Positions 1 through 56,467 of a stretch of DNA of 64,000 nt are shown in pieces. The DNA comes from Xylaria sp. FL1777. Taxonomy: Eukaryota > Ascomycota > Sordariomycetes > Xylariales > Xylariaceae. Location of the stretch: positions 186,001-250,000 of the forward strand of contig MU400524.1 of the NCBI GenBank assembly GCA_022578965.1, given 5' to 3'. The position numbers were made by a program, and so were the translations under genes. A model generated the notes under the pieces. It saw nothing but the letters and a program-made list of their open reading frames with translations, was not told the origin of the DNA and did no database searches. How positions within the stretch are numbered: position 1 is the stretch's first letter; every line of letters starts with the position of its first letter.

Positions 1-1461
1 GTGGTGTAATTATCAAGGGAGGCTGCTTCTCAAGGGCCGAGGTGAAAGCGTGAAAGCTATAAACATGTTAAGAGGCGGAGGATGTATGTAACTTACCTCT
101 CTGGTTACGGTACCTACGTGTATTCTGCTCGCGCGCCTCACTCAAAAGCCGTTCAATGATCTGCCACTACACGTCAGGTCCCTACACGTAGCAGCTCCTC
201 TCCCAAAGGAGACGGATGCTGCGTCTTATGGACTCGCTGTATTTGACCATTTGACCAGCCTTGGTAGCGTAAGCGGTGGACAAATGATTCGAAGGCGGGG
301 GAGCCTGCCTACCTACAGTAGGTACACAATCTATCGCAGAACGAATGCGTCTGCCCGTTGCGTATGCTTATGCATTTTCCTGTTGGTAGGCAAAATGCAT
401 CGGGGGGAGCGCTTTGACAAGTGATCAGGAGATAAGTAGGTACCGGTAGTTAAATGAAGCCTCTCGAATATAATAACGCCATGGGATGCGCGGTAGTGGA
501 GCCAACATCTATGTAGAACCTACCTAGGACATCGTACCTACTTTCACCAGTCGCAAACTTGACCTCTTACGGCTGTGTTGACTAATACCTGTACTTACCT
601 GGGTGTATCTATCCAATCGGTCCACTGTACCTACGGAGAAATTCCAACGACGGCCCGCTGGTTATCCGTCATGCAGCTACCTTCCTTCATGGTTGACTGC
701 ACATGCATAAGCATTGCCGGTGTACTGCGTAGGTATTCCTTCGTATTGTGAGGGTTGTATATCTACTAGGTACCTAGGTAGGTGGGATGAAGGCTAGCAC
801 TGTAATGTAAGCTACATGTACCGTGTGTCCAGATGACATTCACCCACCGACCAGCCTTACAACAGTACCACCTACCTAATTAGATCTAGTTGATCTACCT
901 ACATGTACCTACGGAGTACTTAGGTGCTTTCCTATATCAGTAAGGTCACTTTTAGATCTTTAGCCGCATTTAACATTGATCTACCTGCATGTAGGTGTTT
1001 AATGGATGTTACCCGATAGGTTTATTCCGCCATAAAAGTGCTGCAATAGAACAACTTGTTGTGTATTCAGTCCTTACTTAGGAAGTGCTATACGGACATC
1101 GCATCGAAGCTTCCCGCCTGATAATTACAATACTCATAAGTCACATCGACGGTAGGTAACTGGTACAAGTTGTCGTACAAGTCTCTCTACACAGACACAA
1201 TAGGAAGATTTGGCCGTAATAGTCTCCGATTCGGTAAGTCGTCAGAGGCATAAGTATTGAGTGAATGGATGTATAACTTTAGTTCCATGGCAAGCGAGAG
1301 TACTGTAATTGGCACGGTCCGTAGGGTACCTAACCAACACCAAGATGACAGGTCTGATCCTACCTCCCCTCTAAAACCGCCCTGATACGTGAATCTTCCG
1401 ACTTTGAAGGACCTTGTCTACTTCTCCAAACATGCTTTGGTCCCGGCATCTAAGTAGAAGG
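1..1461. other. Intergenic, no gene seen
   Basis: No coding frame, splice pattern or RNA gene is convincing here. The stretch contains many short palindromic runs of the TAGGTACCTA type (for example about 520-545, 765-785 and 885-912), which recur in other intergenic parts of the window. The end nearest 1461 is the 3' flank of the precursor-peptide gene. Confidence 0.6.
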
Positions 1462-1702
1462 TCACTCGTCCTCAGCGTACCAGGCATAGGCTATAGCATC
1501 ATCGTCATCGTTACCAGACGCGCCCTGGGTTTCGACCTTAGGTTCTCGTTTCACTACTGTAGATAGTCTTAATAAATATACTCCTAGAATACGGTATAGA
1601 TATATATATATATGACTTGCCTTCCTGAGAAGGAGTACTTGGCAGCGCGGCACCAAGCGCTAATGATGCAAAAACGGCGATGAGGAATTTTGCGAATTGC
1701 AT
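1462..1702 (-). CDS. Candidate RiPP precursor peptide (secreted, Kex2-type), single core
   Basis: Two exons, complement(1462..1556, 1621..1702), give 58 residues. Exon 1 encodes a textbook signal peptide (MQFAKFLIAVFASLALGAA, cleavage probably near residue 19). Exon 2 supplies a dibasic Kex2 site (VVKR, K30-R31), a spacer, four aspartates (44-47) and the C-terminal segment AIAYAWYAEDE with Y51, W53 and Y54. The frames join only if the donor is GC (AAG|GCAAGT at 1621/1620) and the acceptor is CTACAG at 1557; no GT donor of normal length preserves the frame. A TATAAA lies about 143 bp upstream (1845-1850). Signal peptide, KR and an acid-flanked Tyr core next to UstY genes is the layout of dikaritin-type precursors. 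Known relatives carry many core repeats; this has one. It could instead be an unrelated small secreted protein. Product unknown. Confidence 0.6.
1557..1620 (-). other. Probable GC-AG intron in the precursor gene
   Basis: This 64-nt interval begins with GCAAGT after AAG, the consensus for the rare GC donor class, and ends in CTACAG. It contains a (TA)n tract. Splicing here joins the signal-peptide exon to the KR/core exon in phase 1. Read without splicing, the frame from the same ATG stops after about 46 residues and loses the core. Confidence 0.55.
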
Positions 1703-1844
1703 GTCGATAGTGACTTAAGAACAACGAAGAAGTGATGTTGAAATTTATACCAATATGTCGTGAGAGTAGTTGATAGAATTCGAAGGTTTTGAGCAATGTG
1801 ATATCCCAGTTAAGTCTCTCTCATCAGCAGGGAAGATAATCCCC

Positions 1845-1850
1845 TTTATA
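1845..1850 (-). promoter_or_regulatory. TATA box, precursor gene
   Basis: TATAAA on the minus strand about 143 bp upstream of the precursor ATG. It sits in the 828-bp region (1703-2530) shared with the divergent UstY gene, so the two may be co-regulated. No other regulator site was identified in that region. Confidence 0.35.
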
Positions 1851-2530
1851 AGTAGCTGCATAGGACATAGGATCAACCCTAAGCACTTATGCTAGATGAT
1901 TTGGTCTTTAATCACGAGAGAAGGTCTCGTATACCTAGTATTCCACTATGTGTTGTCGCTGTGTCAAATCTCTAAGAAATTGTAATATATATTATAGGGT
2001 ATTAACACAATACACATAAGTAAACTAGGGGGGTGTGCTGACAATGCAGTGTATATCCGCCCGACGTGGCATTTTGAGTTTGTGTGGCGCCCTGTAAGCA
2101 GCTCAAAAGAGATAAAAAGATGATAGCTGTGCATACTTAGTTTGTGTTGGTTTTGCAGTTGATGGCTTGCTTACGCGTAAGCGTACCCGGCGTAAAATAC
2201 CTAGGCCTGGTCGGCCGTCTGAGGAGACTCACATGCGAGATCGTATGATAATAATAGAACTATGGTGAGTCCGTGAGATGGTGTACGTAGTCTACCGGTC
2301 ACTGCTGGATTTTCATGCTACCTAGCCATATTCTTAGTCCTCGGGCCTTTTGGTGAAGCCCCTACAATAAAGCTGACTAGCTTGTGGACATCCAACACTC
2401 ACTTACTGGCGACAGATCAATTCTCTACACAATTCGTCCTAGCTCCATGTGAGGCTTGTACCCCGGAAAAACAAAGAACTCATCACCATTGTATCCTTAC
2501 CACTATATTTGTGCTTCTTCAACGTCTATC

Positions 2531-3563
2531 ATGGAGCCTCCTATCAGGCATGGTATGTCCATGGACCTTGAGCAGGAACTTCTTCTTGATCCCGACGATA
2601 AATTGGAAGAAAACTCCCATTCATGGCTGCCTTTTGGCCTGTCTGAAGCGAAATCCTTTCCTAATCGCTGGAAGAAGGCGTTATTTCAGATTAGCACTAC
2701 CGTGCACGTAATTTTCTTGCTTGTCAATATTTACTTGTTTATTGAGCTACTGAGGAGATCGCACAATTCGTCTGCTTATGCTTCCACCTTGTATTGTTAG
2801 TGTAGTTCAAACCAATCTATGAAAAATTCTAATTCTGCAGTACAGCACCAGCTCAGGGAGCCGTGGTATTTGAGAATCGTCCTGTGGATGGACTTGCCGA
2901 AGGAAGCATCTACGCCGGTTATCCTACTTCCGAGTCTGATGCGGCTTGGAATGCACTCATAGAAGGTTGTATCGTACATTATCTACTGACTTTCAGCTCT
3001 CTAACTACCCAATTAGGCATTAATCTCAAGATCCTCCCCGAGGAAATGTCCAGGTTAGACCAAGTCTCATTAGAACTCAATGACGGCACAGGCTATTTAG
3101 CGACTTTGGGGGTCTATCACGAGTTGCATTGCATTGTAAGTGTTTGATGTTCTCCATCTCAAGCATGTCTGCTCAACTAGACCTAATCCACCTTAGAAAC
3201 GGCTTCGGAGATGGTTTTATCGAGAGTATTACTATCCGAATGCGAGTGACATTGAGTTCAACGAGCGCATGACGCACGCTGGTAAGTTAGTATCTGGATC
3301 GTTGTCTAAGTTCGGAAATTGACGGATTGAAAGAACACTGTCTTGAGTTTATTCGTCAGGCAGCCATGTGTCACGGCGATATTACCGTCACCTCATTCAA
3401 ATGGCTCCACGATGCAGATGGGCAGGTGATTGAGCCTACAACGAAGGAAGGTGCTTTGCATAAATGTGTCCGGTGGGATACGTTGTCTGACTGGGCAAAG
3501 TCACGGCGAGTTGACTTGTTTGATCCTAATCTGCTTGTTCCGGAGCACGTTAAAGACCATTAG
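2531..3563 (+). CDS. UstY-family (DUF3328) oxidase 1
   Basis: Five exons, join(2531..2790, 2841..2965, 3017..3135, 3197..3281, 3334..3563), encode 272 residues. There is a cytosolic N-terminus, one transmembrane helix (about residues 58-76, HVIFLLVNIYLFIELL), a DAAWNALIEG segment typical of the family, and the two diagnostic HxxHC motifs, HELHC (163-167) and HAEHC (195-199, continuing LEFIRQAAMCHGD). UstYa/UstYb-type proteins perform oxidative cyclisation of ribosomal peptides such as ustiloxin and phomopsin; some relatives act on nonribosomal peptides. The second HxxHC spans an intron. The gene is divergent from the precursor peptide and tail-to-tail with a second family member, which supports a peptide macrocyclisation role. 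Enzyme activity on this precursor is inference. Confidence 0.88.
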
Positions 3564-3765
3564 ACACGACGAAGAAATAAGCCGCGAATTCTATTGTCCT
3601 CGTAATGGGTTTACCTCAAATGAATACAAATTTCTTTAGTTGAGAAGTATCTAGCTCTATGCCTTGTCATCCCGTTCGATGTGTGACACCTTATCCCATG
3701 ACGTTGATGGAAAAGCTCAGTTGGTTTGTGAGAGAATGAGTGAAAAATCTTGAGCTAACAGAAAC

Positions 3766-4601
3766 TTATGTGTGATCTGTTTGATTATGAGTCCTCCATT
3801 TATCTGCCCAGCCCATCAGTTGAACGATATCCCGGCATTTCCTTGGGAAGCCAAAACCAGTCACTCCACCCAAGTCTTCGTTAATAGGTTCAAGGTTTGT
3901 GTCGGCATGGCACATTATAGACTGCCGCAGATAGTCAATGCAATGGCGAATGTGGCCTGGTTCCGCTTTCGGTTCCGGATCCTTACCATCCCGGGCTGCC
4001 CAGTAACCATGACGGATGGCGTCCTGATTGTGATCAGTAAGTATATTCCACGGGAATGAGCTCGAGGGCCTCACCAGACAGTGTAGTTGATGGTATACGG
4101 CAAGGCCATGTGGTGTAGGAGAGATGATTGGATGCTGAATGAAGCCACGGCCACCTGGTGAGGGTAGTGTTACTAAAGCAATAGAAGGCCGCATGCTAAC
4201 GGTCCTACTCACGCGGAAACACCATATCCCAGTATTTCTGGGAGACGTTGCCAGGTCTCATTCCAAACTGACGGCGATAGTGGAAAGTGTGATCGATACG
4301 CCCAGGTGGTGCTATCAATGTAAGGTTAGCTGATTGTATTATGGCATGCAGTGATTGTCGTACAGAACCAGTCGGATTCGATGGACTGTCTTTCTATATG
4401 CTTCCCTAAAAAAAAGAACGATACGCTCAAACAGATTGCTAGAACAGCGGCTATAAATGAGAGACTGGCCAACGACCGGATTGAGAGATATCGTTTCTGT
4501 TGAGTTTGTGGTGGCGGAATGATAGAGTCACAGGTCTGGCTATCAGTCGCCACATCTTCACGGCAGCTGTATAATGGTTGGTATGCAATATTGGGGCTCA
4601 T
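3766..4601 (-). CDS. UstY-family (DUF3328) oxidase 2
   Basis: Four exons, complement(3766..4023, 4075..4154, 4213..4311, 4364..4601), encode 224 residues. The protein has a soluble N-terminus of about 40 residues, one transmembrane helix (LASLSFIAAVLAICLSVSFF), the region YWDMVFPRGRGFI that normally precedes the catalytic part, and the paired motifs HQLHC (134-138) and HIRHC (163-167, followed by IDYLRQSIMCHAD). The 51-nt intron at 4024-4074 is in frame and would read through if unspliced. It is convergent with UstY gene 1, 202 bp between stops, and divergent from the membrane-protein gene. Two different UstY proteins per cluster is usual in dikaritin pathways, where they act together or in sequence. 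Confidence 0.88.
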
Positions 4602-5356
4602 TGTCTTTGGAAAGAGGCCGCGTTGATCTTGGCGTTATTCTGAGAACATGGGGAGGTAGGAAGATACTGAGACTGGAAAACCAAAGCTAATTCAGAGTCA
4701 AATGGTAATATTCTGTTGTTCATGGGAGATATTTTATTCGCGTAATAACAAATACTTCCAGGCCGCTTGTCAACTAGGAAGCATGTAAGGCTCCGTATCT
4801 CACTGACCTAGCCGAGTCTAACGAATCTCATGGTTGCCCGCCATAGTGAGAAAAAATTGCGACGTAGAACATCAACTACCAAACATGTAACGTTAGATCA
4901 TCAACATGGAAAAGGTACCCTTGCGTCCTGCGAGCGCCATCTTGGGTCGCAGCTTTAAGACTACTGATAGTGTCGTCTTATTTTCATTGACAGCGTATAT
5001 TAAAGAGGCCCTGGATCTCTTACCAATTCCGCCAAAGGATTTTTTTCCTCGCCTGTATGATACTACTACAGTACCGGCCCCTAACCAGTAAGGTGATATT
5101 GATTATGCCGCATATTTGGGCGTGAGCCTACATCCTGGTACGCCTGCTGACCACCAAGAATCAGATTTCGCGGATTGCATATTAGCCAGACATTTTTAAG
5201 CACCGAGAAAATCCACAATCTCGTCTCCAATCGATTTTATGTTAACGTCGCCATGCTCATTATCTCTGTGTTTCGGTCACAACAACTTGTCTCCGCCACC
5301 CCTATTCTACGTCTCTTTAATCAGCACCCTGAGTACGCGTATGAGCATCAGTCAAG
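4602..5356. other. Divergent promoter region between UstY-2 and the membrane protein
   Basis: A 755-bp gap shared by two outward-facing genes. A 61-codon open frame at 4906-5091 has no signal peptide, motif or repeat and is not called. No clear TATA or regulator site was identified. Confidence 0.4.
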
Positions 5357-6716
5357 ATGGCTCCCTCTCTAGGCACAAATATTATCATAATATCGGTAGT
5401 ATTTGCCGTGCTACCCACTGTTGCCGTCTTCTTCAGATTCTGGGCACGATCTATCAAGCCTTCAGGGTTGTCTTTGGATGACTATTTCATCATTCCAGGA
5501 CTGCTATTCAGCGTCGGGATATGTGTCAACACTATTATCGGTGAGTTCAACAAGACCTCGACGGCCATCTCATTTGCTTACTGATGAAATCTAGCGGTGA
5601 CCCGAGGGGGTCTTGGTAGCCACATACGCTTAGATGGGGAGGGCAATATTGTTTTTGACAAACGCCTCATCACCTTTTTACAGGTAAAGAACTCGGGGCT
5701 AGAGTCGTCGCTTCATAAGAGTCTGACACAGTGCGTAGACTGAATTCGCCACTCAGTTACTGTCGGTCCTGTCACTCGTTTTCACTAAGCTTTCCATCGT
5801 CCTTTTTTACCGCCGGATATTCAGAGGGAATGTATTCACTATCGTTAGTTCCGTCCTTCTCGCCATCATAACAGGTTGGGGTATTGCATTCTTTTTCGCG
5901 ACCCTTCTAGAATGCATCCCTACTTCAGAAACCTGGATGTCGCTGTACGGCACACCGCAACATGATGCACACTGCTACCAATATCTTCCTATGTTCATTG
6001 CCACCGCCATATCAAATATGATCGTAGATATTGCCATCTTATCTGTCCCACTACCCATAGTGTGGAAGTTGAAGATCACCACTAGACAGAAGATAGCTAT
6101 CAGTGGCATCTTCTTACTGGGCGCCTTGTAAGTCAATATTGATTTGGCTTTAAGAGAATGGAAACCACGGGGATTATATTCACGAAATCGAACCTAGAGA
6201 CTCGGCTAACCAAGAGATAGTGTGGTGGGCATCAGTATCGCCAGAATTTATTTCTTCTATCAATCCTCTGACAGCTATGCGAACGCCCTAGACATCACTG
6301 GTTCGTCTCCTTTCGGATGCACCAGACGTCAACACCAGCTGACTTCTTTAGTAAACATTGCACCTACACTTTATTGGACAGAGTTAGAGGCTAGCATTGC
6401 TGTGGTCAGCGCTTGCTTGCCAACACTGCGACCGCTTTTTTCTCACTTTTCCCCTGAAGCGATATTACGTGATTTTGCAAGCAAGTTTTCCCTGCGCAGC
6501 GGAACCAAGTCATCATTTGATCGGCTACCTCACAGCACAACCGACCTAGATCAAGCATCCCTCAAGGGAAGTAGGTCATCAGCCGTGGGACTTGTGAATC
6601 GATGCGAGGCAGTTCGGTTACAAAACATGGATGAACCCACAGCTGCACTCCAAAAGCAAGCCGGCATTCTTGTGCAAAAATCCATTCATCAATCTGAAGA
6701 TGACCAGAGAGTTTAA
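5357..6716 (+). CDS. Fungal rhodopsin-like/PTH11-type seven-helix membrane protein
   Basis: Five exons, join(5357..5540, 5595..5683, 5739..6127, 6221..6300, 6352..6716), give 368 residues. Seven hydrophobic helices are visible, beginning NIIIISVVFAVLPTVAVFFRFWAR and followed by the family's LSLDDYFIIPGLL. Later come TKLSIVLFYRRIF, a Cys pair (LLECIP and DAHCYQY) and IVDIAILSVPLPIVWKL, then ACLPTLRPLF before a soluble Ser/Thr-rich tail. This matches the large fungal rhodopsin-domain family, whose members include PTH11-like receptors but are mostly uncharacterised. It is separated from UstY-2 by a shared promoter region, so it could be co-expressed with the cluster. A sensing or transport function is not shown. 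Confidence 0.85.
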
Positions 6717-8560
6717 AACACGGACAGCCTGAACTTGGGGTGTGGATTATAAGCGACAACATTTAGGATGGGGGATTCAATGTGTACTTAGTAAAATAGC
6801 CTGCAGTTGTGTGGCTTTTAGTGGAATATGTCAACCCTTGCTCGCAACATAGGCTCTTTCTGCGATGCCTTGTCTCTATAACTCCAAATGCGATTGAAAT
6901 GTTTACAGTGTCACAGAGTAGTCCCTGGATATCTAAATTTACTGGTCCGTCTTGTTGGTAGAACTGCCGAATAGGTATGTCCTATCTACCCGTACACGTG
7001 TATTTCATAGCATGATGGCCGGCTTGAGGCAATTTCCATTAGTCGGATTCAGCTCACACAGTATCTTTGGTACCGAGCTAAGTAATACATACCTACAATA
7101 GCCACATACACATGCGTACAATGTACATATTCACTTGGACAGTGTCAGTTCTCTATCCCATTTGCTATGTACACAAAACAGTAATTGCACTTATATGTAA
7201 ACCGGTAGCACAGCATAACGCCACAAATTATGTGTGAGAAATATATGGGTACTTGGAGGTACCTAGTAAGGTGGCTGAGCCTCTACCTGGGGGCGTATGT
7301 ATATAATTGGTTGCCGGGACCTCAGACATGCATATGGCTGGCTCCCTACCTATATGTGCCAACATTGAAGACCAATCGTATACTGTACGCAGTAGGTATT
7401 TTCTGACGAAGACCCGTACAGGTCAATAGTAGGTAGGTACTTTAACTACGGCAACCTCTTACTCTCGTCACCCGGTCATAACGATCCATCCCCGCACCCC
7501 TTCATCGACCGAGAGATCTGGGAGGCTGCAACACAACCCTCCATGTAGAAATGTAGCATGCACCTATTTAGATACCTATGACGCGACGCTAATTTGTACG
7601 TTGCCTGCCCAATGCCTGTGTAACAAGGTCGGTCTTTTCCAGAGCGCCGAAATCGGACTCCCGTTATCCTTGGATCAAGTCAGCTTACACTAACACCGCC
7701 TATACATAAGAAGGCAACCTTTAGCTACCTAGAGGAGAAAATAGGATGGTAGTTGACCTGGAAAAGGACCCTGCAGGCCTCTGATATGTTTGACAGGGGC
7801 TTTGAGGCGCCAGGGTCGCCGAGGGTTTGGCGACAGCCTGCAGCAGCCCTTCATGCAACTGACATCAGACTTCGGCAATTTTGGTTCTCATACCAAGCCT
7901 ACTTGTCGTGTTCGGACAGAATTGCAAAAGATTTGAAATACAGCACGAATTATTACACGTCGTTCTTACACGGTGACGGTGGGCCATTACCACATAACAC
8001 CAACAATCCAAAAAAGGCGGGGTAGAAACCAAACGCAGAAAAAAAACACATTTTATTACAATTACACCACAACTAGTGTATAATGAAATAAAAGGTTAAT
8101 TACAGCAATGATATTTGTAATACTGCCTTTTGTGGATTGTTGGTGTTATGTGGTAGCGGCCTTCCATAAATGGTCTTCCAACGAAATACGCTAAATCAGC
8201 GGGATAGGCGCCAATCCAAAATTTACCACACGTAATGAACGCAGGTAAACCCAACAAAGAAGTTGGGGGGTGTACAGTCTCTAATGTGGCCGTTAGATTT
8301 GGGTACGGCCGTGCTTCGAGACAACTTATGTAACTGGTCGCTTTGATCCTGTAGGTGCCACGCAAGCACTCTTTTGTCTACGAATGCTCCTTAACGGATT
8401 AATCAAACCCGAGGATACAACTATGCTCAAGCACATTTCCAACTTTAATTCTTTAAAACCCTGCGATTAAGTCGAACTATTCTTTTACACCTCTCTAAGA
8501 TACAGTTTCACAGCAAGTAAGGCTTGACCTACAGGGTGTACCCCCCCTTTTTTTACCATC
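6717..8560. other. Intergenic, AT-rich, contains an inverted repeat
   Basis: About 1.8 kb without a supported gene. Several TAGGTACCTA-like runs occur near 7085, 7260 and 7430. The inverted repeat at 7982-8162 is listed separately. Open frames at 7753-8025 and 8096-8365 lie on the two strands of that repeat and show no domain. Confidence 0.5.
7982..8162. repeat. Inverted repeat, arms about 36-40 bp
   Basis: The left arm (about 7982-8020) contains TACCACATAACACCAACAAT. The right arm (about 8123-8162) is its reverse complement with only a few mismatches. The arms are separated by about 100 bp of AT-rich sequence. It could form a hairpin or be the remnant of a foldback or MITE-like element. No target-site duplication was found. 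Confidence 0.6.
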
Positions 8561-10123
8561 ATGGCCACCTCTCGTATTGTCGAACTGGCGAACAGGATTG
8601 CGAACAACACGGCCAAGATTGATGAATATCTACGAAGCCGCAACCTACCTACGCCTTCTTTTGACGTCGACGGTCCTCGTGATACTTTAATTCCAAAGGA
8701 TGAAGTGTCTATAGAATCAGCAAGGGTCGCAATTGTCGACGACACGTTAGAGCTGCGACGGTTGGCTCTTGGGCCACGAGAGTATCTCATGAGCTACACG
8801 GTCAGTTCAAGTGATTGAAACTAGAGTGATTCGCCTGATTAATTCGTTATCTAGCATGACGAACTTATTAGTCAACAAGCTATCACACGTTACCGTATCG
8901 CTCACTCGTTTCCTGTTGGCCAAGAAGCTTCCTTCGCCGACGTAGCTGCCGCTACAGGCCTAGATCAGGGTCTCGTCCGTCGATTCGTTAGGCATGCTAT
9001 TGTAAAAGATATCTTCACAGAACCTCGCCCTGGAATTATCGCTCACAATGCAGTTTCGCGGTTGTTGGCTGAGGATCAGGTCATTCATGATTGGGTTAGT
9101 GCAAGTACGGATGATTTGTGGCAAGCTGCCGCTCAAACCTGCAACGCCTTGGACAAATGGCCTGGGTCTCAGGAACCAAACGAAACGGTATGCCAACGCC
9201 AATCTTACTTTTGATGACTGGCTAGAAGTCCGTCAGGCTTACTTTTATTAGGGATTCTCCATGGCGAATGAAACAGACCAATCAATCTACGTCGAGTTCT
9301 CCAAATTTCCAGAACGTGCTCGTAGATTCGGAAACGCGATGAGATCATTTACTGAAGGCACAGGTTTTGAGTTAGACCATATTGTAAACAACTTCCCATG
9401 GGGTGACTTAAAAGAGGGTACAGTCGTGGATGTAAGCTCTTCAACCCCTGGTACCTTTGAAAGTCCAGCTAGTGGCGGGTTTTGAAACCAGGAAGATATT
9501 CCGAGATATCGCTAACGTTGCAATTAGGTTGGTGGATCTCAAGGCTTCGCTTCTTTCGCAATTGCCCGAAAATTCCCGTCAGTAACATGCGTGGTACAAG
9601 ATCTTGAGCCCGTGATCTCCGCTGCCGAAGAAGAAATACCGGCTGAGCTAGCCGATCGTGTGAAGTTCATGACGCACGACTTCTTCAAGGAGCAACCAGT
9701 ATCTGGAGCGGATGTTTACTTCTTTCGCTGGATATTTCACAACTGGTCTGATAAATACAGTATCGAGATCTTGAAGAAGCATATCCCAGCACTTAAACCT
9801 GGTGCTAAGATTGTCATCAATGATAATGTCTCACCACAGCCTGGATCGTTGTCTAAATGGCAAGAGGATCGTCTTCGGTAAGCCATGAACTATTTCGTAT
9901 ACGTATCTATTTCTTGTATCCTGCCTTTTCCAACTAACAGTGGATATCGTATAGATCTATGGATCTTACCATGACTGAAATACAAAACTCCTACGAGCGG
10001 GAGGTGGACGATTGGGCCAAGCTTTTTAGAGAAGCTGATAGCCGATTTGAATTTCAGGGGGCTAAACAGCCACCTGGTTCTAACTTATGGCTTGTGGTAG
10101 CTGAATGGAAAGGGGATATGTAG
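8561..10123 (+). CDS. SAM-dependent O-methyltransferase (plant-type family 2)
   Basis: Five exons, join(8561..8800, 8855..9187, 9252..9431, 9528..9877, 9955..10123), encode 423 residues. The N-terminal dimerisation helices begin MATSRIVELANRIANNTAKI. A winged-helix part follows, then the SAM-binding loop DVGGSQG (251-257), an acidic residue after VTCVVQDLEP, and FFRWIFHNWSD with the likely catalytic base His322. The loop codons join only when the 9432-9527 intron is removed. An apparent stop near 9213 lies within the 9188-9251 intron, so the gene is intact. Such enzymes methylate hydroxyls of small molecules and are common in secondary-metabolite clusters. Its position makes it a candidate tailoring enzyme for the RiPP-like cluster, but the 1.8-kb gap makes membership uncertain. 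Confidence 0.87.
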
Positions 10124-10695
10124 ATGAGAAAAAAACCTCTACAATATCGTCGGTTTAGGCTGTTGTAGGCAAGTTTGCTTTTCTGGGATTGAGTGTCAGG
10201 AATGGGAACCGACAGTCAACGGACCGCACTGACCGAAGTTTATCGAGCCGTCACTACTATCCTTACGCCTTTATAATCAACGACGAAAGATAAGAATAAG
10301 CAAGCCTAAGCCCCGGCACCAAAATACATATCACAAAGCAGTGATGAAGAATCCTTAGTAAATCTTCGAGTACCGTGTATAAAGTGTAGTAACTCGAAGA
10401 CCCCCTCGGCACTGCAACTTAAAATTAGATATTTTTATACAGTACTACCACTTCTATTAAGGATTCGAGATTTCCTTACATATGGCACAAGTAGGTACCT
10501 GTCATTGTTTACCATCGCATCTATCCACCGTGCGACTAGCCTCATGACCTATTCCTAACCAGCCATTCATCATGAATACTACAGTACCGTCGGATACACT
10601 TCTCAGCTGACCATACCAAGTACTAGGAGCGTTTAAATAAAACACTAACAGCGTAAATGAAGCGGAAATATCGTCGTAGGCCCCATTATGGAAAA
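10124..10695. other. Intergenic, nothing recognised
   Basis: Between the 3' ends of the methyltransferase and the flavin-reductase-like gene. No coding, RNA or repeat signal is evident. Confidence 0.5.
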
Positions 10696-11421
10696 TCACA
10701 CGCTACTCTCGGCCACCATAATCTTATCATCATCATCCCCAGGCAACTTGACAACATTGCTCTTAGTGAGCGCGCGGTACTTCTCCTCGTCAATTTGACC
10801 TAGCGTGCTCGCAGTCACCTTGCCGTCTCTCAATCCGTAGAGCTCCTGAAACGACATGATGAGCGGCCGCCACTTGTCGGGGTCGATGCGATTCGGATAC
10901 CCTTCCATTTGCAAGCTCCGCCAGACGTGGACACGGAGCACCCGGACCTCAATCGCCAGGATGAGGCCTGCACGATCGGGCAAGTCTTTCCGGAGCCCGT
11001 TGACCTGGACCACCTGGCACTCCATCTGGGCCGGGCACTCGGCAATGCGCTGCGGGGCGACGAAACTTGAGGGTTGCGGTTGGAGGCCAGCCCTCGTCCA
11101 CTTGTCCTTGACGAACTCGTAGTCTCGCGAGGCCTTGGACTCGGAGACAGGGTTGGAGCCAGTTGTGCGGGCTAGTTTGTTGACGTATCCGGCCATGGAG
11201 TCGCTGGCTAGATTAAGGACGCATTCGTTTGTACGGAGGATGTTTTCGGTCGTTTTGGATGAAGCATCGAGCCCGAGCACGCACGAGTGACCGAGCCACC
11301 ACGCAGAAGACATGGGCGCGATGTTGCTTGTTCCATCTTCGTTCTCGGATGTAATTAAAACCACTGGCGTGCCCCAGTAGAGGATGGCAGGAGAGATGAT
11401 GGTGTGTTCGGTTGACGACAT
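10696..11421 (-). CDS. Flavin reductase-like domain protein (FMN-binding split barrel)
   Basis: Single exon, 241 residues, starting at an ATG in a clear context. The N-terminal stretch ILYWGTPVVLITSENEDGTSNIAPMSSAWWLG is characteristic of the flavin-reductase-like split-barrel fold. There TSNIAPMSS contacts the flavin phosphate and CVLGLDASSKTTENI forms the next strand and helix. The family binds FMN and includes NAD(P)H:flavin oxidoreductases, but many fungal members have no known substrate. No signal peptide or membrane segment, so probably cytosolic. The C-terminus is acidic (GDDDDK). It is convergent with the methyltransferase and has higher GC than the intergenic DNA around it. A link to the upstream cluster is possible but unsupported. 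Confidence 0.85.
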   Translation of the reverse strand: MSSTEHTIISPAILYWGTPVVLITSENEDGTSNIAPMSSAWWLGHSCVLGLDASSKTTENILRTNECVLNLASDSMAGYVNKLARTTGSNPVSESKASRDYEFVKDKWTRAGLQPQPSSFVAPQRIAECPAQMECQVVQVNGLRKDLPDRAGLILAIEVRVLRVHVWRSLQMEGYPNRIDPDKWRPLIMSFQELYGLRDGKVTASTLGQIDEEKYRALTKSNVVKLPGDDDDKIMVAESSV

Positions 11422-12392
11422 TGTGCTAAGGTTGAGCGGTCTCTATAGTCTATAAAAGTCTGAAATCTAAACTTGTAAACAGAAGATGAAATGCTAGTGT
11501 ATGTGTGAAACTGTGAAGTGTACTATTGTCGAGAAAGGTTTACAGAGGTCAGATTCGAAGGTTAAATACTAGAAGATCCGACCCCTTAAATCAAATTACG
11601 AGCTGGATGTTTTTTGTTGAGGAGTTCATTTTCTCATTCCGGCGTCTATTGATTCAATTTGATTGGAAAGAATAACTGTATCTGAAGTATCTCCGCGGGT
11701 CCTTATGATCTGCTATTGTATTATTGCTATGGAAGTCAGTCAAATTGGATGCTTGGTTGGCTGTTTTGAGAGCAATGGTGAGTATGACTTCACTGCAAGG
11801 TCAAGTTGGATGTCTGATGGGCCAGTTTGAGAGCAATGCCGATGTAGACTCCACTGAAAGGCCTACCTTATTTCAAATCCTCCTTCTGGTCTTGACTCGA
11901 ACCGTTTTCTAATCACTCTCAATCCTGTCGGCTAACTGTTGCATCTCCGAAAAATCAATCGAAAAGTCCGGATATTCCTTTTTCTATCACAAGACTTAAT
12001 AGTAGCTATTATTAGCTCCCATACGTAGTACCATCGACGGGTTTTTTGCAATTGTGAGGATTTTTGTTAGTATGTTCGATTCACCAACTGGGCTAGCGCC
12101 GCCTTGGCGGTCCTGAACTGGGATCGACCAACCGTGCTATTTAAAACGGATGATTTCTTTTATTCAACTTAACCTTTTCAATGTCCTCATTTTGATACAT
12201 TACATGTAATCACATTAGCAAAGGACCATCCTGTTCTCTTGAGTGCTCCAGGTTCCTAGCTAGATAAAATAGCGCGAAAATCTTTTTGTCAGGACTACAG
12301 TGGTAATACGAAGGTAAGAAGAAAGCAAGCGGGCGTCGAATTTTCTTTCAAGTCTCTTGTATTTCTGTCATTCAGACGGCATCATCTTCCAC
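11422..12392. other. Intergenic with a tandem duplication
   Basis: No gene supported. It contains the 61-bp imperfect duplication at 11739-11860 described separately. The rest shows no motif. Confidence 0.5.
11739..11860. repeat. Two-copy 61-bp imperfect tandem repeat
   Basis: Two adjacent 61-bp units start with GTCAAATTGGATG (11739) and GTCAAGTTGGATG (11800). Both contain TTTGAGAGCAATG near the middle and CACTG(C/A)AAG at the end, about 75% identical by eye. It is probably an old local duplication. Confidence 0.65.
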
Positions 12393-13592
12393 TCACTGCA
12401 TTAGATGCCGGGTATCGTCGTTCGTGGAATTCGTACCGGGAGGGGCCCCGCCGGCCTCGAGATCCGCAGCGCCGGCGCCCACGCCCACGCTGCCGCGGAC
12501 ATCCTCAACGTGCTCGTGCTTGGGCTTCTCGTCATTCATGCCGACAGTTGGCGTGGCATCATCAGCGCCCGGGTTGACCGTCTCGTACTCGAGCGCCTTG
12601 ATGGTTACGTAGAACCCGGATGCGAGAAGCGCGCCGATGATAGGGCCGACGTGGTAGATCCAGTGGTAATGGACGAACGATGCTGTGATGACACTGGGGC
12701 CCAGTGAGCGCGCGGGGTTCAGGCTGCCGCCTGTGTAGTAGACACCCCTATAGTGGGGGAGGCTTCGTCAGAGTGAATGACTCATGGGAAGGGTCATAGG
12801 TAGGTAGGTAGACAGACTTACATCAGTTCCGCGATAAACAGAGAGAGGCCGATGCCGACGGGCGCGATGAACGTAGCCCGGTGCTTCTCGGCTGCTAACA
12901 TGAAGATAGTCAAGACGAGCTGGGTAGTGAGGAATATCTCGATAAACAGACCCTGTCATATGTATGTCAGAACGTATACCCCGAATTGTCGAACCCCGCG
13001 CTGGGTGTCGCGCATGACTGACCTGGACAACAGATGCACCGCCCCCTAACGTTGTCGAGACCTTGAGCTCGCCCGGAAGGATGCCCAGCAAGACGGCGGA
13101 GGCGGCGATTCCCCCAGCGAGCTGGCTCACGATGACGAGCACGCCACGGACGTACGGCACGGCACCAACGACCATCATGCCGATGGTGACAGCCGGGTTG
13201 AACAGCCCGCCGCTGATGCGGAAGAAGACCCAGGCATTGACGGCCAGGCTCATGCCGAAGCACAGGCTGATGAACAACAACTTGGCGGGGTTCGCGGCCA
13301 GGTCCTCGGGCTGACCCTCGTCGGGTGCCGAGTTGACGGCGTTGGTGCCGCCGAACGCGAACAGCAGGAACATGAAGGTGCCCGCGAACTCGCTCAGCAC
13401 GGCCACGATGTGATTCTTGATCTCGAGAGGGAGGCGGTTCAACAACTTTACGCGGTGGTGCTCTATCGAGGCTGCGAAGCTTGGCATCCGGTTGCCCAGC
13501 GTCAAGCGCCGCGGGAAGGTCGGACGCCGCACGGGAGGGTTAGGCCTCTCCCAGGGCAGCCGGACGCTGGCACCTATCTGGGCTTGTTCCAT
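12393..13592 (-). CDS. Aquaporin (MIP family)
   Basis: Three exons, complement(12393..12747, 12822..12952, 13023..13592), encode 351 residues. Both half-helix motifs are present: NPAV in loop B (132-135) and NPARS in loop E (244-248). Six membrane segments are visible, from VLSEFAGTFMFLLFAFGG to IYHVGPIIGALLASGFYVTI. A basic, proline-rich N-terminus and an acidic, Gly/Ala-rich C-terminus are probably cytosolic. After the second NPA the residues are RS and not the RD of aquaglyceroporins, which suggests an orthodox water-channel type; transport of other solutes cannot be excluded. The last intron has TAGGTAGGTAGG repeats. The sense strand is GC-rich compared with neighbouring DNA. Neighbours give no pathway context. 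Confidence 0.9.
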
Positions 13593-16390
13593 CTTGTGTT
13601 GTGAGTGGTCGAAGAACTATTCTGATAACGGCCTTGCGTTGTGATGGGTTGAGCGACAGAGTCGCTTTATAGGAATGAAATCTGTGTGCGATGTGATACG
13701 GTCAGTTCGCCTTCGCCGTCTGATGGTTTCCAGCGATCGCACATCTCGGGCTGACTCTTTATATACTTTCTACTAACACAAATGCGACATAGGCCCTTCA
13801 CACCACCCATCATCCCGGCTCCATTGCGTCGATCCATCGTAGTCGACACACCAGCAATTCTCGCCGTTATCTATTGCCGTCCACAGAAAGATCAATGAAT
13901 GTATCGCATAAAGCCTCTCCGCTCTTGTGCTTCCATTTCCACGTACGATGATGCTTAGTGTGGTACGATACAGCATTCTTGAAGACGCATCTCTGTCGAT
14001 CCCTTAAAGCAGGCTGCCTGATAACACAAGAGAAATCGCTTGTTGTATTATGCTGTAGAACATACAACCACTGTTGCTACCCAATATCACCAGATAGATT
14101 AAAAGGCCTTGAATGATGAACCTACCACTCCTCATTCTCCGTGGAAGGTATCCTCCAGCTGCCGAACCAACGAAGACGACACCGATTCAGAGCACTACGG
14201 CGCATGAAGGGTCGCACCAGGCGCACTAGCTGGCCACAGGCTCTCTGGGAGATGCTTGTCGTCGGGTAAGAGAGAGATAAGACAACGAGGAACCCGTAGA
14301 AGAGACTACACGAGCTCTGCACAAGATAGGATGACATGTCGTGTTGCCTCGAACTAGGGGGGTGTGCTCAGTGGAGGGGCTGGCACTCTAGGTGCCACCA
14401 TGAACCAATTAGAAAGCCTGTGGGATTCGAGGCACATTGTGAGACGACGATGGCGACAGGACTCCAGTTGTAGGACGTTGTCCATCTTTTCTCCTCCGCC
14501 GTTCCCACATGCAGGGATCTAGGGCGAACTGCGATGATCACGGATCCAGAACAAAACTTTCGACGCCTCCCTTTTATATCATCTGCCCTAACACCCTTGA
14601 CCTTGTAGGTCTTCGTCGGCAGTCGCACTGATTGGACGTCTCTTCCTCCCAGACGTAGCAATTTGTAGGTGGTGACACGTTACCGGTGTATCACCAGAGT
14701 TAATCCAAGACCATTATTGTGTACCTGTGGCGGTTCATTATGTGGCGAATCTTCCTCACAAGATTACTTGGTCGTCGATTTCTCCTGGTTGGATTGAATT
14801 AAAATAGCTCAAGGGTCAGGAGTCGAAGAGTCAAGGATCTGATTACATGAAAGGCTTAGTAGGTAGCAGATCTTTTCTCCTTTTTGATTATTTTACGAAC
14901 TGTGGAGGGGTTACAATAACGGTTGGTCAGTCCCACTTGATACGTCTTTTGCAGTACCCCAGATCACGGTGAGATCCGGCCGGTGTGGATCGCGCTTCAC
15001 GGGCCAAGCCGCGCGGAAGACTCTCTCCGACGCGCATAGGTGGAGTTTATCTAGTTTAGAACAGCCTTGACCCTTGATGAGTTAGATGGAAGAGAGATTC
15101 GTGGTTGGTGTACAGTTGGTCAACTTTCGGTCCTTTTTCACTACCTACATATGCCCCGATGCACGTTATATTCAATCACGCCAGTCTATGAATACGCTCA
15201 TTATACTCTTTTATGATGCTATTACTTCTTATTCAAGTTGTTTAGTAGTAGTCATCATAGAGATTTAGAGCTGGCACTAGGTAATAATATCCGGTCGGAA
15301 TTCCGATCTCTGGCTGAGATCAAGGTTTATTTCTCTCTATTTGATGTTGACACGTTGTTTTTTATAAGAGTCTTATTCCCTTCATTCTTATCACTATATC
15401 AAATCTTGCTATTAGACTACCTTGCGCGTTTGGCGACGGTAATTAACTGCTTTTAAAGGTCTCGTAGACATCGTATCCTTGGGTAACGAACAGTAAAAGG
15501 CCACAGCAGATCATCGACATGCATATGCAGCATTCCTAAAAAGGGAACAAGATTGCGTCCCAGGAAGTTTCATTTGTGATGAATGTGCTGGACGCCACCA
15601 TCTTAAATATATCTCGTATACGTTATTTCCGGTTAAGCGCAAGGTAAGCTGAAGTTAAAACAATAAACATAGGACTAGGCAAGTAATATCTTTATTTCTA
15701 TTACGAAGCCCCGTTCAATAGCGAAGATTTTCTCGATAGGTTCGACACAACAAGCTCTATCCTAGACGACCTATACGATGTAAAAGGATATCATGCGAGC
15801 TATTCTTTATGGATGACGTGGTAAACTACAGTTGGTTAGACTTTTGATGTGTGATAATGTGTCGCTTCCGACGTTGCGCTCGTCAGTCAAGTTAGTGACC
15901 ATGGAAAACTTTCTCATAGTTATCTGACCCCTAAGGCTTGCATATTCTCTTTGAGAACGTCTTATATAGAAATACGGACTGATAGCTATAAGGAAGAAAT
16001 AAAACAGTAAAATACACTTTAGGTATAAGATGTCTCTGTTATTTTGAACTCTTTTTGGAAGCCGTAGTTTCTCCCAGGATCATGCAAGCTAACCGCACTC
16101 AGTGTGATTAATGCAGTAGATAGGTCCGGAAAAATTAAGCGGGCTCTGTTTCCTTCCTATGACCATCCAAGAATTACCTGTCCAGTTCTAGCCCCATACT
16201 ATGAACTTTTTTCTATCAGACTTACATCGTATAGGGGTTCAATCTGCAGTCGTCCAGGCTCCCTACCAATACTTCAACATCTGTATGCCAAAAGGACAGT
16301 TCCTTTTTCATGGAGACTTCAGAAAGATATTCTTCTTCTCATCTTCAGTCGTCAAACCCCCATTCCTATCATGTCATACCACAACCCGCG
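13593..16390. other. Long intergenic region, no gene recognised
   Basis: About 2.8 kb, AT-rich especially after 15.2 kb. A 71-codon frame at 14122-14337 (minus) begins with a hydrophobic stretch but has no other support. No transposon ends, LTRs or RNA gene were recognised. Confidence 0.45.
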
Positions 16391-19847: not shown

Positions 19848-21292
19848 TCAGCAGCCGCCTAGACCAGTCACCCCGCCATCCGCGACGTATGTGCAGGTCA
19901 AGGAGGCGGTATCCCCCGATAAGCCCACCTGGTCGATATCCTCGAGAACGATACCTTCGCAGGGAATGACATCGCTACACGATATGGCAATCGTGTTACT
20001 ATCCCCTGACAAGGTGCCCGTGACGTTGCGTAGGGTGATATCAAAGATGCCCATCTTGCTGCTGCCCCCATGTGTGCCATCGTCCCCATTTTCCTGGGTA
20101 ATATAGAAAGGTAGGGATGCGCCATTGACATCCAAGTTTTCGACCGTAACATTGCGCACAAAACCCCAGCCACCACCCCGCGGCTGGTACTCGCTCTCGT
20201 AGGAGTTCTGGTATTGTAAAACCCCCGTCCAACACTTGATGTAAAATCCCCAACGGTGCTTCACCTGGAGGTCCGTCACCGTGACGTTCTCCACGCTGCT
20301 GTCCTCCAGATACTGCCCCAGGCTCCCGATGGCAGGGCCGTTCCCGGCATGACACGTGATATTCTTGACATTCACGTCGTAGGAGCGGGGCTTGATGGCG
20401 ATGCAGTCATCCCCGCCCGTATAGTCGAAATTCCTTAGCGTCACGTTGCGGACGTCCATGGTGTCTGTCCAGGTGTTAGTCTCATCAGCCAAGGAGAAGG
20501 TGGGGGTGAGCTCACCGAAGCCGTCGGTATTCTGGACCCAGTTCGAGCCGCTCGGGGCTTTGGTAGCTGTGGCGTTGACGTAAAGGTTTTCCACTAGGAT
20601 GTTTGTGCCATTCATAATGTTGAACGCCCAGAGTTGGGGTTGCCAGATTGAGAAGTCTCTCACTATAACGTCGGAGACATTCCACAGCACAAACGGCTGT
20701 ATGCACGGCGGCAAGTCAATCGTTCGGTCAATCTAATCTCTCGAGAACGCAACACAACGTACCATTGGCCTGCCCGCCTGAGTCTTGCCGGCCTCTGCAG
20801 TATACCATAAATCTCCGTTGCCGTGTATCCCGCCCGTGTTCCCGCCGTCAATGGTAATATCCCGGCCGGTGAGCACAAAGCCGGCCCAGTGGTTCTGAAA
20901 GGCCACATGGTACGAGTTGTTCCTCCAGTACGTGATATTGTCCGAAAACTACGAGGCGCGATGAGTTCACCCATGTCACTAGCGCATGAGGGAGGAATTG
21001 ACCGGCAACTCACTGTCCACCTCCCGTACCACTGAATCTGGACGTCGTCCACGACGGGGTTGAACTTCTCCGCAATCCAGAAGTTCTGATCCTTCGGGAA
21101 CGTAATGCTGCCGTGCTTTCCGCAGAGAGTGAATGCCTGCTTGAGAATCGGAACATCATTGGTGTTATTCCCGTTGCTAGTCACAGTACAGCGGGGGCGC
21201 TCATGGACGTAGTGGACCGATACGCCGCCCGCCGAGACCCGACCGCTGAGGGTCACGAGGATTGTGATGAGGCATAGACCGGAAAATAGCAT
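19848..21292 (-). CDS. GH28 glycosidase, secreted, atypical active site (pectin/rhamnogalacturonan type)
   Basis: Three exons, complement(19848..20696, 20763..20948, 21014..21292), encode 437 residues. A signal peptide (MLFSGLCLITILVTLSGRVSAGG) precedes a right-handed beta-helix. NTDG (211-214) and GDDC (250-253) carry the catalytic aspartates. The usual GHG site is GNG (273-275, in HAGNGPAIGSLGQY) and the usual RIK is YIK (307-309). True polygalacturonases keep His and Arg there, so another activity such as exo-rhamnogalacturonan or xylogalacturonan cleavage is more likely. Numerous NxS/T sites suggest heavy glycosylation. It is divergent from an alpha-L-rhamnosidase with a shared 709-bp promoter, which supports a rhamnogalacturonan role. 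The exact specificity is inferred. Confidence 0.88.
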
Positions 21293-22001
21293 GTTCACGA
21301 TTAGCTAGCGGGCCTTGGTGATTGCGGCCCTTGTTGTCTCACGCGGCCGGTTCCCCTTCGGCGCCTTTGTAGGCAAGCTCGCGTGTCAGAGAATAGGTTT
21401 TCGGGGAGAATATACGTCATCAGCTCGATACTCTCGGCGCGCATTAGACCGAAGTCCCATCACGCGCGAAGGGGCAGCCTCCAGCTAAACGCTTTTGACA
21501 TTTCTCGTGATGGCGATTGATCTCATGGCATATGCTGCTGCTCGGTGTGCACCAAGTGATAGAACAGACAGCTTAGGGCTAGGCTGACTACGAGGTCAAA
21601 GTGCCGGTTCACCCCTGGGCAATTCGCATAGTGCAACTCGACCTCCCCGCATTCTCGGGTTTGTTGGAGTGGGTTGATATCATTTCATCCGTCCACATGA
21701 ACTCGCCTTACTCCGCAGGTCAACAGTCGGGATTCATCCTTTGTGGAGTACCGAGCCTTGGAAAAGTTGGTCTCTGTTCACTTCCCATGTCTACCGTAGA
21801 TTTGAGGGGTCCGAGCTCGCTGGAGTTTCGGCCGAGACTCGTCGGTCCAGATCAAAGCGCTGCTTGCTAGAGAACAGCATTCGTAAGCTCCAATAACTTG
21901 CAATAAGTATTTCATCGATAGCGGTCCTGCCCTCATTGGCTGCCGTGTGGTGCATTATTGGGAACCTTCCCCGTGCCGTGTATATCCGTTTTCATAGCAT
22001 C
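21293..22001. promoter_or_regulatory. Shared divergent promoter of the GH28 and GH78 genes
   Basis: A 709-bp region between outward-facing ATGs. It has an inverted CCAAT box (CATTGG, about 21934) near the GH78 side and several CGG triplets. Joint control by a Zn2Cys6 regulator of pectin or rhamnose use is plausible, but no defined site was matched. Confidence 0.4.
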
Positions 22002-30535: not shown

Positions 30536-32061
30536 TTTGGAGATAAGGGATGCCGAGGTTAAGCACGATTAAGTAGAAATAGCGCTTTTAGATATTCTGA
30601 TTAATGTAAGCGTCTGGACTGACTTGGGAGAGTGTAATTATGTCGGTCCATGATAGGTATGCTGCTAAAACATAGCGAAGAGATTTAGCACTGACCTAGG
30701 TGCGGGGAAATAAAGCCAATACGACGTTGAACTGGTCGTGATGCTGACCACCTACTTCTGTTACCTCTATCATCTGGGACCAGCGCCGGGTCTCGAAGAT
30801 CTCCGATGCGCGGCCCCCTTATAAACCGGAGATATTGAATCATATCTCCTACCCCTTTTTCAATCTATAAATAGAATTCATAACGTATAGGAGTGGGTAC
30901 CAAATCTTCCACATCGCGTCTACGTAGACGCCATTGAGGTCGAACTCACTCTAACATCAGCTTCACATTAAATTAGTCATGCCTCGTTAGACTAATATTC
31001 ATCGCATACTTCCGTATGTTCACTTTGGAGATGAACAAGTAGAAGGCATCTACTATGACATAACGCAGTTGGGCCAAGGCGAATAAGAAATGATAAACTG
31101 CCATGCTAATTTTCCCTGTTAACAGGTGTTTTCAATGATAATGTCAAACTTGATTAAGGTCTGATGTATTGTCAGAGACAACATGATCACTTCATCGCCG
31201 TCTAATACCAAACTTGTAGCATTTGACAATTATTTGCGCTAATCACACGTTGGCCCTGGGGGAGAGAAAGAACAACAAAGGGGACCTGTTCCTCTCGTGC
31301 CGCTATTCTCGTTTCAACTAGTGCAGCCCTAGTATACGAGAACTAGCTCATCTTTATAAAAGAGCATATGTTGAAAATTTCGGAGCAAACTTTTCATCTT
31401 ACGAACGTCTGATCTGATCGCGCATAGACTGTTACTATTGCAGCAGTCAAGATGCAGGGTTGAAAGTCTTTATCAGGCAGTCACTATTACGCACATAATA
31501 TCCGAAGCCACTCGCATATAATACTAATATGTATGCTCTCATGTGCTCTGATAATATGAACATGCGGCTCATTAAATGTGGATATTATAACCTCGCCTTA
31601 AAGTCAATTGGTGGAAAATACGATACATTACATCCGAGTTGGGGTTAAGTTATAAGCGGTCTAATGATCGTGAGTTGAAGAGTTGACATCATTATTTCCA
31701 ACCGACTAGGAGTTGTCCCAGCATGGATGAATACATGTGTTGCTCGCCAAGCTTCTACTGGGGTTCCCCTCTCTTATGCACTGTCATAAGCTGGGGGTAA
31801 ATCGGGATAAACGAATGCGTGAGCCTATGTCGACATGACATTCCGCGCCGAGTAAAGGGGAAAATTGTTAATAAGACATTCCGATAAAAGATGCAATCTG
31901 GCTGAGTTTGACCGGTGCTGCTCGACTACGGAAGACTGGTTCCGCACAGATGTCCAAGTGACATGAATATAACTCCCTTCACTCCCCGCTGAGGAGTAAG
32001 AGATATTCATTCGATCAAACCTCTATTTATCAATCAAATCGAATGTGTTTGGCAGCATAAG
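30536..32061. other. Intergenic, nothing recognised
   Basis: About 1.5 kb of AT-rich DNA between the divergent acetyltransferase and GH2 genes. It serves as the promoter region for both. No motif or gene can be supported. Confidence 0.45.
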
Positions 32062-56100: not shown

Positions 56101-56467
56101 TGGCGTTGAGCAACCGCTGTCCGGTGCTGGTGGGGATGAAGGAGGAAATCCAGACCTCTGGGAGACTTATGTTAAGGTATCCGTCGATGTAACCAATACT
56201 GGATCAAAACAGGGTCAGGTTGTCGTACAGCTTTATTTAAGCTATCCAAATTCATCTACGGTCGACTTCCCTGTCAAAGTTCTGAGGGGATTTGACAAAT
56301 TACCTCTCGAAAAAGGAGAAACGCGTACCGTGACTTTTAATTTGACGAGGAGGGATCTAAGTTATTGGGACGTTGTGGCGCAGAATTGGGTTATGGTGGT
56401 CGATGGTGAGTATAGATTTTTGGTCGGACAGAGTTCGAGAGATTTGCCTGTCTCTGGGCCATGGTAA
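53109..56467 (+). CDS. GH3 beta-glucosidase, type II membrane-anchored
   Basis: Five exons, join(53109..53925, 54083..54357, 54418..54453, 54600..55469, 55610..56467), encode 951 residues. A cytosolic N-terminus of about 75 residues is followed by a transmembrane helix ([24 protein letters not shown]) and not a cleavable signal. The catalytic domain reads [48 protein letters not shown], and [10 protein letters not shown] with nucleophile D360, then LDMTMPGDG. The 36-nt third exon ([12 protein letters not shown]) is supported because it restores the LD/MTMPG joint. The second domain has [15 protein letters not shown], then [14 protein letters not shown], and the fibronectin-III domain ends the protein. 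Resembles fungal beta-glucosidases anchored in the plasma membrane; hydrolyses terminal beta-glucosides at the cell surface. Convergent with the DUR3-type gene. Confidence 0.92.

Follow-up and report, generated by a model that had tools for sequence, protein, structure and literature searches.

A probable UstY-dependent RiPP cluster with an almost fixed AIAYAW core in Xylaria sp. FL1777

Five neighbouring genes of Xylaria sp. FL1777 (a small precursor peptide gene, two UstYa-family oxidase genes, a Fung_rhodopsin gene and an O-methyltransferase gene) probably form a UstY-dependent RiPP pathway of the asperipin kind, with UstY as a dicopper oxidase. Judged from sequence, the probability of this reading is roughly 85%. 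The genes lie in one window, meaning the whole stretch of 64,000 nt that was analysed (Table 1). A sequence-only reading had proposed a UstY-type RiPP cluster whose precursor is this peptide, with a core not described before, and had suggested looking for the precursor beside UstY genes in related fungi. The proposal is well supported and withstood the refuting condition set for it: the peptide is conserved, and a UstYB relative lies on contigs of equal length in several other genomes. The membrane protein and the O-methyltransferase that it counted to the set were confirmed by PF20684 and PF00891 matches. The locus is more than a chance arrangement because there are relatives in other fungi, linkage, a second copy and a synonymous-only change over DDDDAIAY.

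Table 1. Features of the cluster, in positions of the window
Feature	Position	Strand	Details
Precursor peptide gene	1462..1702	-	exons 1702-1621 + 1556-1462, 58 aa; deposited as F5Y12DRAFT_738611
Intron of precursor gene	1557..1620	-	64 nt, GC-AG, GCAAGT...CTACAG; junction yields deposited protein
Signal-peptide-like N terminus	1646..1702	-	~residues 1-19; hydrophobic from residue 6; C40 copy begins similarly
Acidic run and core DDDDAIAYAWY	1477..1509	-	residues 44-54 of precursor
UstYA, UstYa-family (PF11807) oxidase	2531..3563	+	5 exons, 272 aa, HELHC/HAEHC
UstYB, UstYa-family oxidase	3766..4601	-	4 exons, 224 aa, HQLHC/HIRHC; deposited as P0029, F5Y12DRAFT_792817
Fung_rhodopsin (PF20684) membrane protein	5357..6716	+	several exons; final exons only partly modelled
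O-methyltransferase (PF00891 Methyltransf_2)	8561..10123	+	5 exons, 423 aa

The precursor gene starts with an ATG at 1702 (minus strand). No single reading frame spans it, as an intron interrupts the coding sequence; this had been predicted correctly. The accompanying expectation that the precursor was unlisted and missed by annotation was wrong: the exact 58-aa model is already deposited, as an identical hypothetical protein on a contig of 523,445 bp, the size of the window's own contig. The 58-aa junction is consistent with five deposited models of 58–62 aa (P0001, P0011, P0012, P0014 and P0017). A second, weaker GT donor (CCAA/GTAC, read from sequence) would lead to 52 aa. The GT donor suits the deposited protein of a second cluster copy on contig C40 (P0009, 71 aa), and the GC donor suits the relatives of the window gene. 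The signal peptide was assessed from hydrophobicity only, with the cleavage site placed without a prediction tool. Pfam and NCBIfam profiles had no match on P0001 and P0003.

Both oxidases matched PF11807 in a profile search (E=4.3e-46 for UstYA and 1.9e-24 for UstYB), and the HxxHC(x)nHxxHC copper motif is complete in both, with both HxxHC motifs kept. This motif is the binuclear copper site in the DUF3328 enzyme CctR (PMC12435403, in excerpt). UstYB had no match to PDB sequences up to E=1, and its AlphaFold model (mean pLDDT 82.0, pTM 0.65) gave nothing usable against the PDB (best E=2.1). The four fully modelled genes of the window (precursor, UstYA, UstYB and O-methyltransferase) are all open and spliceable. 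No PKS or NRPS core enzyme was read among the listed ORFs (at least 80 aa at 1–16000, at least 150 aa at 10500–64000), as judged by reading the ORFs and not by profiles, and with an upstream coverage of 20 kb only. An MFS gene sits just beyond the window edge.

At E≤10, a profile search with the precursor listed 28 proteins, of which 26 also passed E≤1e-3; two of these 28 belong to Xylaria sp. FL1777. The relatives span two fungal classes, Sordariomycetes and Leotiomycetes, with the orders Xylariales, Amphisphaeriales, Sordariales and Helotiales. The 28 listed proteins comprise 42 units. AIAYAW was found in 38 of the 42 units, which overstates its invariance because the word-based search prefers relatives with an identical core, and DDDD is immediately N-terminal to the core in 40. 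One or two units are present in 25 of the 28 proteins (some of them fragments) and three units in the other three; the window precursor has one unit with one core. As far as these sequences indicate, the core DDDD-AIAYAW-Y/F is almost fixed and not hypervariable. The repeats of UstY-type precursors, according to PMC7329392 (in excerpt), vary greatly in sequence. A literature search with the core strings, which did not extend to supplementary tables, found no paper naming this core.

The peptide and a UstYB relative were found on contigs of identical length in six genomes. This concerned seven loci, two of them in Xylaria sp. FL1777. Seven of the 53 listed UstYB relatives, which represent the longest contig per cluster and were drawn from 673 word-sharing candidates, have the exact contig size and organism name in common with a precursor relative. 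Six of these were among the 12 listed first and only one among the other 41, namely the C40 copy of Xylaria sp. FL1777. For 11 of the 18 precursor proteins with a named organism, the listing held no UstYB contig of the same size, which does not mean absence. The linkage is loose at two of the seven matching contigs, as these are 1.7 and 4.9 Mb long. For UstYA, the O-methyltransferase and the rhodopsin-like gene, linkage was examined within the Xylaria sp. FL1777 genome only.

In this genome, a second, diverged set of the five genes lies on contig C40; the rhodopsin-like gene is present in both copies. In a two-locus search, the matches had E-values of 3e-105 (O-methyltransferase), 6e-50 (UstYA), 2e-34 (UstYB), 1e-26 (rhodopsin-like) and 0.002 (precursor); alone, the precursor match was not significant (E=2.4). 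The eight codons of DDDDAIAY differ between the window and the C40 copy by four synonymous and no nonsynonymous changes, and the eight codons preceding them by five nonsynonymous changes. The first core of the C40 precursor is diverged (P-I-V-Y-L-Y), the second ends early at AIAYP, and there is no dibasic site ahead of either.

Two further claims of the sequence-only reading, a Kex2-type precursor and a dikaritin core, stood only in part. The window peptide does have a dibasic site upstream of its core (KR, K30-R31), but the site is not fixed: within 16 residues upstream of the core, 24 of the 42 units are dibasic, 14 have R only and four have neither. The site is AR in X. cubensis and GR in Ustulina deusta, and it is missing in the C40 copy. 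The dikaritin assignment holds in the broad sense of UstY/DUF3328 genes plus precursor: PF11807 genes, an intact copper motif and an encoded precursor with a predicted signal peptide, linked to the UstY genes, were seen. In the strict sense of the phomopsin/ustiloxin gene set it was rejected, as neither a tyrosinase nor an S41 peptidase was found near the cluster. Exon-by-exon searches, which yield lower bounds, gave 18 matches for tyrosinase (PF00264) in the genome and three for the S41 peptidase (PF03572). None of the former was on contig C19, and none of the latter on C19 or C40; the PF00264 matches on C40 were ~210 kb from the cluster copy. The window precursor, with its one unit, is also not a KEP by the repeat criterion of at least three repeats between dibasic sites.

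Asperipin-2a (precursor AprA, UstY-family cyclase AprY) is similar in that a precursor and a UstY gene form a small cluster, without a tyrosinase among the four genes listed in PMC6514808 (in excerpt). Different here are the second UstY gene, the O-methyltransferase, the Fung_rhodopsin gene, the core itself and the single-core window precursor. UstY homologues, a methyltransferase, a core that includes Ile and Tyr, and a precursor destined (here by prediction) for secretion are shared with ustiloxin and phomopsin (PMC6514808, in excerpt), but here Ile precedes Tyr instead of following it, the core is single, and the exon-by-exon searches gave no PF00264 match on C19 and no PF03572 match on C19 or C40. 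An N-terminal Ile and an internal Tyr are also reported for epichloecyclins (PMC9233826, in excerpt), a likeness by description and not by sequence, whereas their precursor GigA has four repeats (PMC6514808, in excerpt). KEP genes are frequently close to DUF3328 genes (1758/7878). KEP type G-6 (Umemura 2020) is Y- and D-rich like the peptide described here, again compared by description and not by core sequence; it occurs in 19 genera including Chaetomium, Monosporascus and Hypoxylon, with a DUF3328 gene within 15 genes for 46 of 49 (all PMC7329392, in excerpt). The KEP pipeline, however, demands at least three repeats, a number that 25 of the 28 proteins do not reach.

An almost invariant core in four orders is also what a ligand would show if its receptor were fixed, and aromatics spaced by one recall mating-factor repeats (PMC7329392, in excerpt). 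The peptide might be a Kex2-processed signal of the pheromone or hormone type that is secreted unmodified, with the UstY genes acting on another substrate. We consider this unlikely, because the peptide and a UstYB relative share equal-length contigs in six genomes and Xylaria sp. FL1777 carries the linked set twice. Moreover, mating-factor and pheromone KEPs almost all lack accompanying DUF3328 genes, with three exceptions (PMC7329392, in excerpt).

As DUF3328 proteins are found outside RiPP pathways too, in polyketide and NRPS clusters (PMC12048977, in excerpt), the UstY, O-methyltransferase and rhodopsin-like genes could belong to such a pathway, with the peptide as an unrelated neighbour. 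This is very improbable given that the ORFs, as read, contained no PKS or NRPS core enzyme and that other genomes, too, have the peptide and a UstYB relative on equal-size contigs. Least probable of all, the RiPP cluster could be silent or degenerating in Xylaria sp. FL1777: the second C40 unit is shortened at AIAYP, but the four fully modelled window genes are open and spliceable, and the core change between the two copies is synonymous only.

For the UstY-dependent RiPP pathway, we infer from the genes that a product is made by the following route. A signal peptide would bring the 58-aa precursor into the secretory pathway, and a cut after Arg31 of the Kex2-type site (a single Arg in some relatives) would release a 27-residue peptide. 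In this peptide, a recognition arm that closes with DDDD would be followed by the core AIAYAW(Y/F) and then by an acidic tail. The core would next be cross-linked by the two UstY proteins, as membrane-anchored dicopper oxidases, in the simplest case between Ile49, Tyr51 and Trp53 inside I-A-Y-A-W; the I-x-Y-x-aromatic pattern of these residues recurs in the diverged first C40 core. The O-methyltransferase may then methylate the product. Its completion and export would fall to peptidases and a transporter with genes at other loci, the MFS gene outside the window being a possible candidate for the transporter.

New are the near-fixed core across the 28 listed proteins, the UstYB linkage and the five-gene copy on C40; the precursor protein itself was already deposited. 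The near-identity of the core across fungi is unusual; it hints at a shared, important job. A tentative and rather doubtful extension sees in the AIAYAW peptides a single, almost unvarying molecule: a bicyclic Ile-Tyr-Trp cross-linked peptide whose I-x-Y and Y-x-W rings overlap and are formed by the two dicopper UstY enzymes. It would be kept across Sordariomycetes and Leotiomycetes by a conserved target or receptor. If they do act on such a target or receptor, they would be a conserved signal and not a fast-evolving toxin. The rhodopsin-like protein could be a sensor for the peptide or serve self-protection. The known product groups of UstY-type pathways are few (PMC9233826, in excerpt). UstY enzymes have only lately been recognised as dicopper enzymes, and the precursor, which contains Trp, is a candidate substrate for them. 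Its nearly fixed core together with the UstYB partner allows a specific product to be predicted from sequence and tested. As the core is mostly present in one or two copies, it falls under the three-repeat threshold used to find UstY-type precursors; surveys of fungal RiPPs may therefore count too few precursors with a low number of repeats.

The 58-aa window peptide is identical to the deposited hypothetical protein F5Y12DRAFT_738611 (Xylaria sp. FL1777, 523,445-bp contig C19). It has a hydrophobic, signal-peptide-like start, followed by K30-R31 and then EPKVETQGASGN-DDDD-AIAYAWY-AEDE. Its gene stands head to head with UstYA, which starts 828 bp away. The UstYB gene model is identical to the deposited F5Y12DRAFT_792817, and UstYA and UstYB each have a hydrophobic stretch at the N terminus and carry two HxxHC motifs. 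A MITE-like element lies between the rhodopsin-like and O-methyltransferase (OMT) genes at 7982-8161; its inverted ends are 37 nt long and 92% complementary, and searching the genome with it returned 25 match rows, self counted twice. Read from their translations, the window ORFs 19848-24204, 31993-34392, 53079-56467 and 61389-62522 resemble plant-polysaccharide hydrolases.

Features of the window, of the second copy on contig C40 and of the second C19 precursor
Feature	Position	Strand	Remarks
The window	G000:C19:186001-250000		assembly 58.7 Mb, 588 contigs
MFS transporter	C19:184214-185978		just beyond the window edge
Precursor peptide gene	1702-1462	minus	two exons (1702-1621, 1556-1462), 58 aa
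Precursor gene intron	between the two exons	minus	64 nt, GC-AG
UstYA	2531-3563	plus	Pfam UstYa match
UstYB	4601-3766	minus	next gene after UstYA; Pfam UstYa match
Fung_rhodopsin protein	5357-6716		after UstYB; profile match
O-methyltransferase	8561-10123		after the Fung_rhodopsin gene; profile match
Flavin-reductase-like gene	10696-11442		past the OMT; taken as flanking
Aquaporin-like gene	about 12393-13616		past the OMT; reading of ORF translation; taken as flanking
C40 OMT	29.86-31.47 kb		
C40 UstYA	about 31.9-33.0 kb		
C40 rhodopsin-like gene	34.2-35.2 kb		
C40 precursor	37176-36893		
C40 UstYB	37855-38751		
Second C19 precursor	L013:3177-3503 = G000:C19:420177-420503	minus	signal-peptide-like

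A search of the organism's own genome with the window precursor returned its own two exons and one weak match (C40:36896-36952, E=2.4), which sits between two independently detected UstY loci. C40 carries the same five genes as the window cluster in a different order. When the window proteins were searched against a two-locus database (tblastn), the C40 matches had E-values of 3e-105 (OMT), 6e-50 (UstYA), 2e-34 (UstYB), 1e-26 (rhodopsin-like) and 0.002 (precursor). The C40 precursor is the deposited F5Y12DRAFT_415976 (71 aa; 81 aa if modelled with another donor). It has two units, each a core with its DDDD: the first core has diverged (DDDD-GPIVYLYD), and the second unit ends at DDDD-AIAYP. 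Between the two copies, all four changes in the eight DDDDAIAY codons are synonymous; in the eight codons preceding them, two changes are synonymous and five nonsynonymous. A genome search with one unit from a relative matched only the C19 and C40 places.

A single-sequence search with the window precursor found itself and one Xylaria cubensis protein. The three-sequence profile (window, X. cubensis, C40) matched 28 proteins at E<=10, of which 26 passed E<=1e-3; the three profile members match by construction, and some proteins are fragments. The sources include Xylaria, Ustulina, Annulohypoxylon, Hypomontagnella, Monosporascus, Microdochium, Apiospora, Parachaetomium, Chaetomium and Sclerotinia; four precursor-bearing fungi whose lineages were checked belong to two classes and four orders. 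AIAYAW was found in 38 of 42 units and DDDD immediately N-terminal to the core in 40, in a set preselected by common five-residue words and thus under-sampled for altered-core members. The residue following was F (26), Y (11), T (2), S (1), D (1) or the protein end (1). Seventeen proteins had one unit, eight had two and three had three.

For linkage, which across genomes covers UstYB only, 53 UstYB relatives were compared with the 28 precursor proteins, and contigs of equal length were taken as the same contig. There were seven exact matches, with organism names agreeing too: FL1777 C19 and C40, Xylaria nigripes, X. cf. heliscus, Annulohypoxylon moriforme, Hypomontagnella monticulosa and Chaetomium fimeti. 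Two of these contigs are long, 1.7 Mb in X. nigripes and 4.9 Mb in C. fimeti, and equal length gives no gene distances. Linked relatives made up 6 of the 12 listed first vs 1 of the 41 others (Fisher p=2.5e-4, a guide only, as the cut at 12 was set post hoc and the species compared are related). Among the relatives listed (longest contig per cluster, non-exhaustive), 11 of 18 named-organism precursors had no UstYB relative on a contig of equal length.

The whole assembly gave 31 exon-level UstYa matches across 14 contigs, so FL1777 may have at least a dozen UstY loci. A second UstY-rich stretch of C19 has UstYa matches at about 412-422 kb. Its precursor comprises three near-identical units with a 126-nt period, containing DDDEVELLWGSGTWSYGSSKR; C19 therefore appears to hold two distinct UstY RiPP-like clusters.

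In the 16 residues preceding DDDD, 24 of 42 units had a dibasic site, 14 had Arg without a dibasic site and 4 had neither. The window's KR is replaced by AR in X. cubensis and GR in Ustulina deusta. By these sequences, Arg before DDDD is common and a strict Kex2 site is not. Judging from the protein alone, the deposited X. cubensis model (P0002, F4860DRAFT_494923, 76 aa) seems to translate the GC-AG intron instead of splicing it out; spliced as in FL1777, it would be about 58 aa.

The DUF3328/UstY enzyme CctR is described as membrane-associated, dimeric, binuclear-copper and oxygen-dependent (PMC12435403; see also PMC12186524), and AprY and ApnU are named as CctR-like (PMC12435403). Ustiloxin and asperipin depend on UstY proteins for their ether-linked rings; the phomopsin ring joins Tyr to Ile, and in the ustiloxin core Tyr lies two positions from Ile (PMC6514808). 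In epichloecyclins, Ile precedes Tyr (PMC9233826). AIAYAW has the same two-position spacing in Ile49-Tyr51 and Tyr51-Trp53. Because of this spacing, and because the first C40 core retains I-x-Y-x-aromatic, one or more cross-links would be placed within I-A-Y-A-W, with UstYA and UstYB perhaps making one each. DDDD may be a recognition element, as both C40 units retain it too, and the OMT would methylate the product.

The broad features of UstY RiPPs are present wherever they were testable. The strict phomopsin/ustiloxin set was rejected: in exon-by-exon searches (lower bounds), tyrosinase had no match on C19, its C40 matches lay about 210 kb from the second copy, and S41 peptidase matched neither contig. 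Kex2-processed repeat proteins (KEPs) are defined by three or more repeats (PMC7329392, section 13), which leaves out 25 of the 28 precursor-family proteins; KEP type G-6 of Umemura 2020 may include multi-repeat relatives. A full-text search of CC-licensed PMC main text found no paper with the core strings. Kuhnert 2021 reports a ustiloxin-like RiPP cluster in Hypomontagnella species, Hypoxylon rubiginosum and H. pulicicidum; the passage on this cluster does not name X. hypoxylon (PMC8403587), despite its relative of the window precursor (P0007). The AIAYAW precursor cluster is unusual in the conservation of its core.
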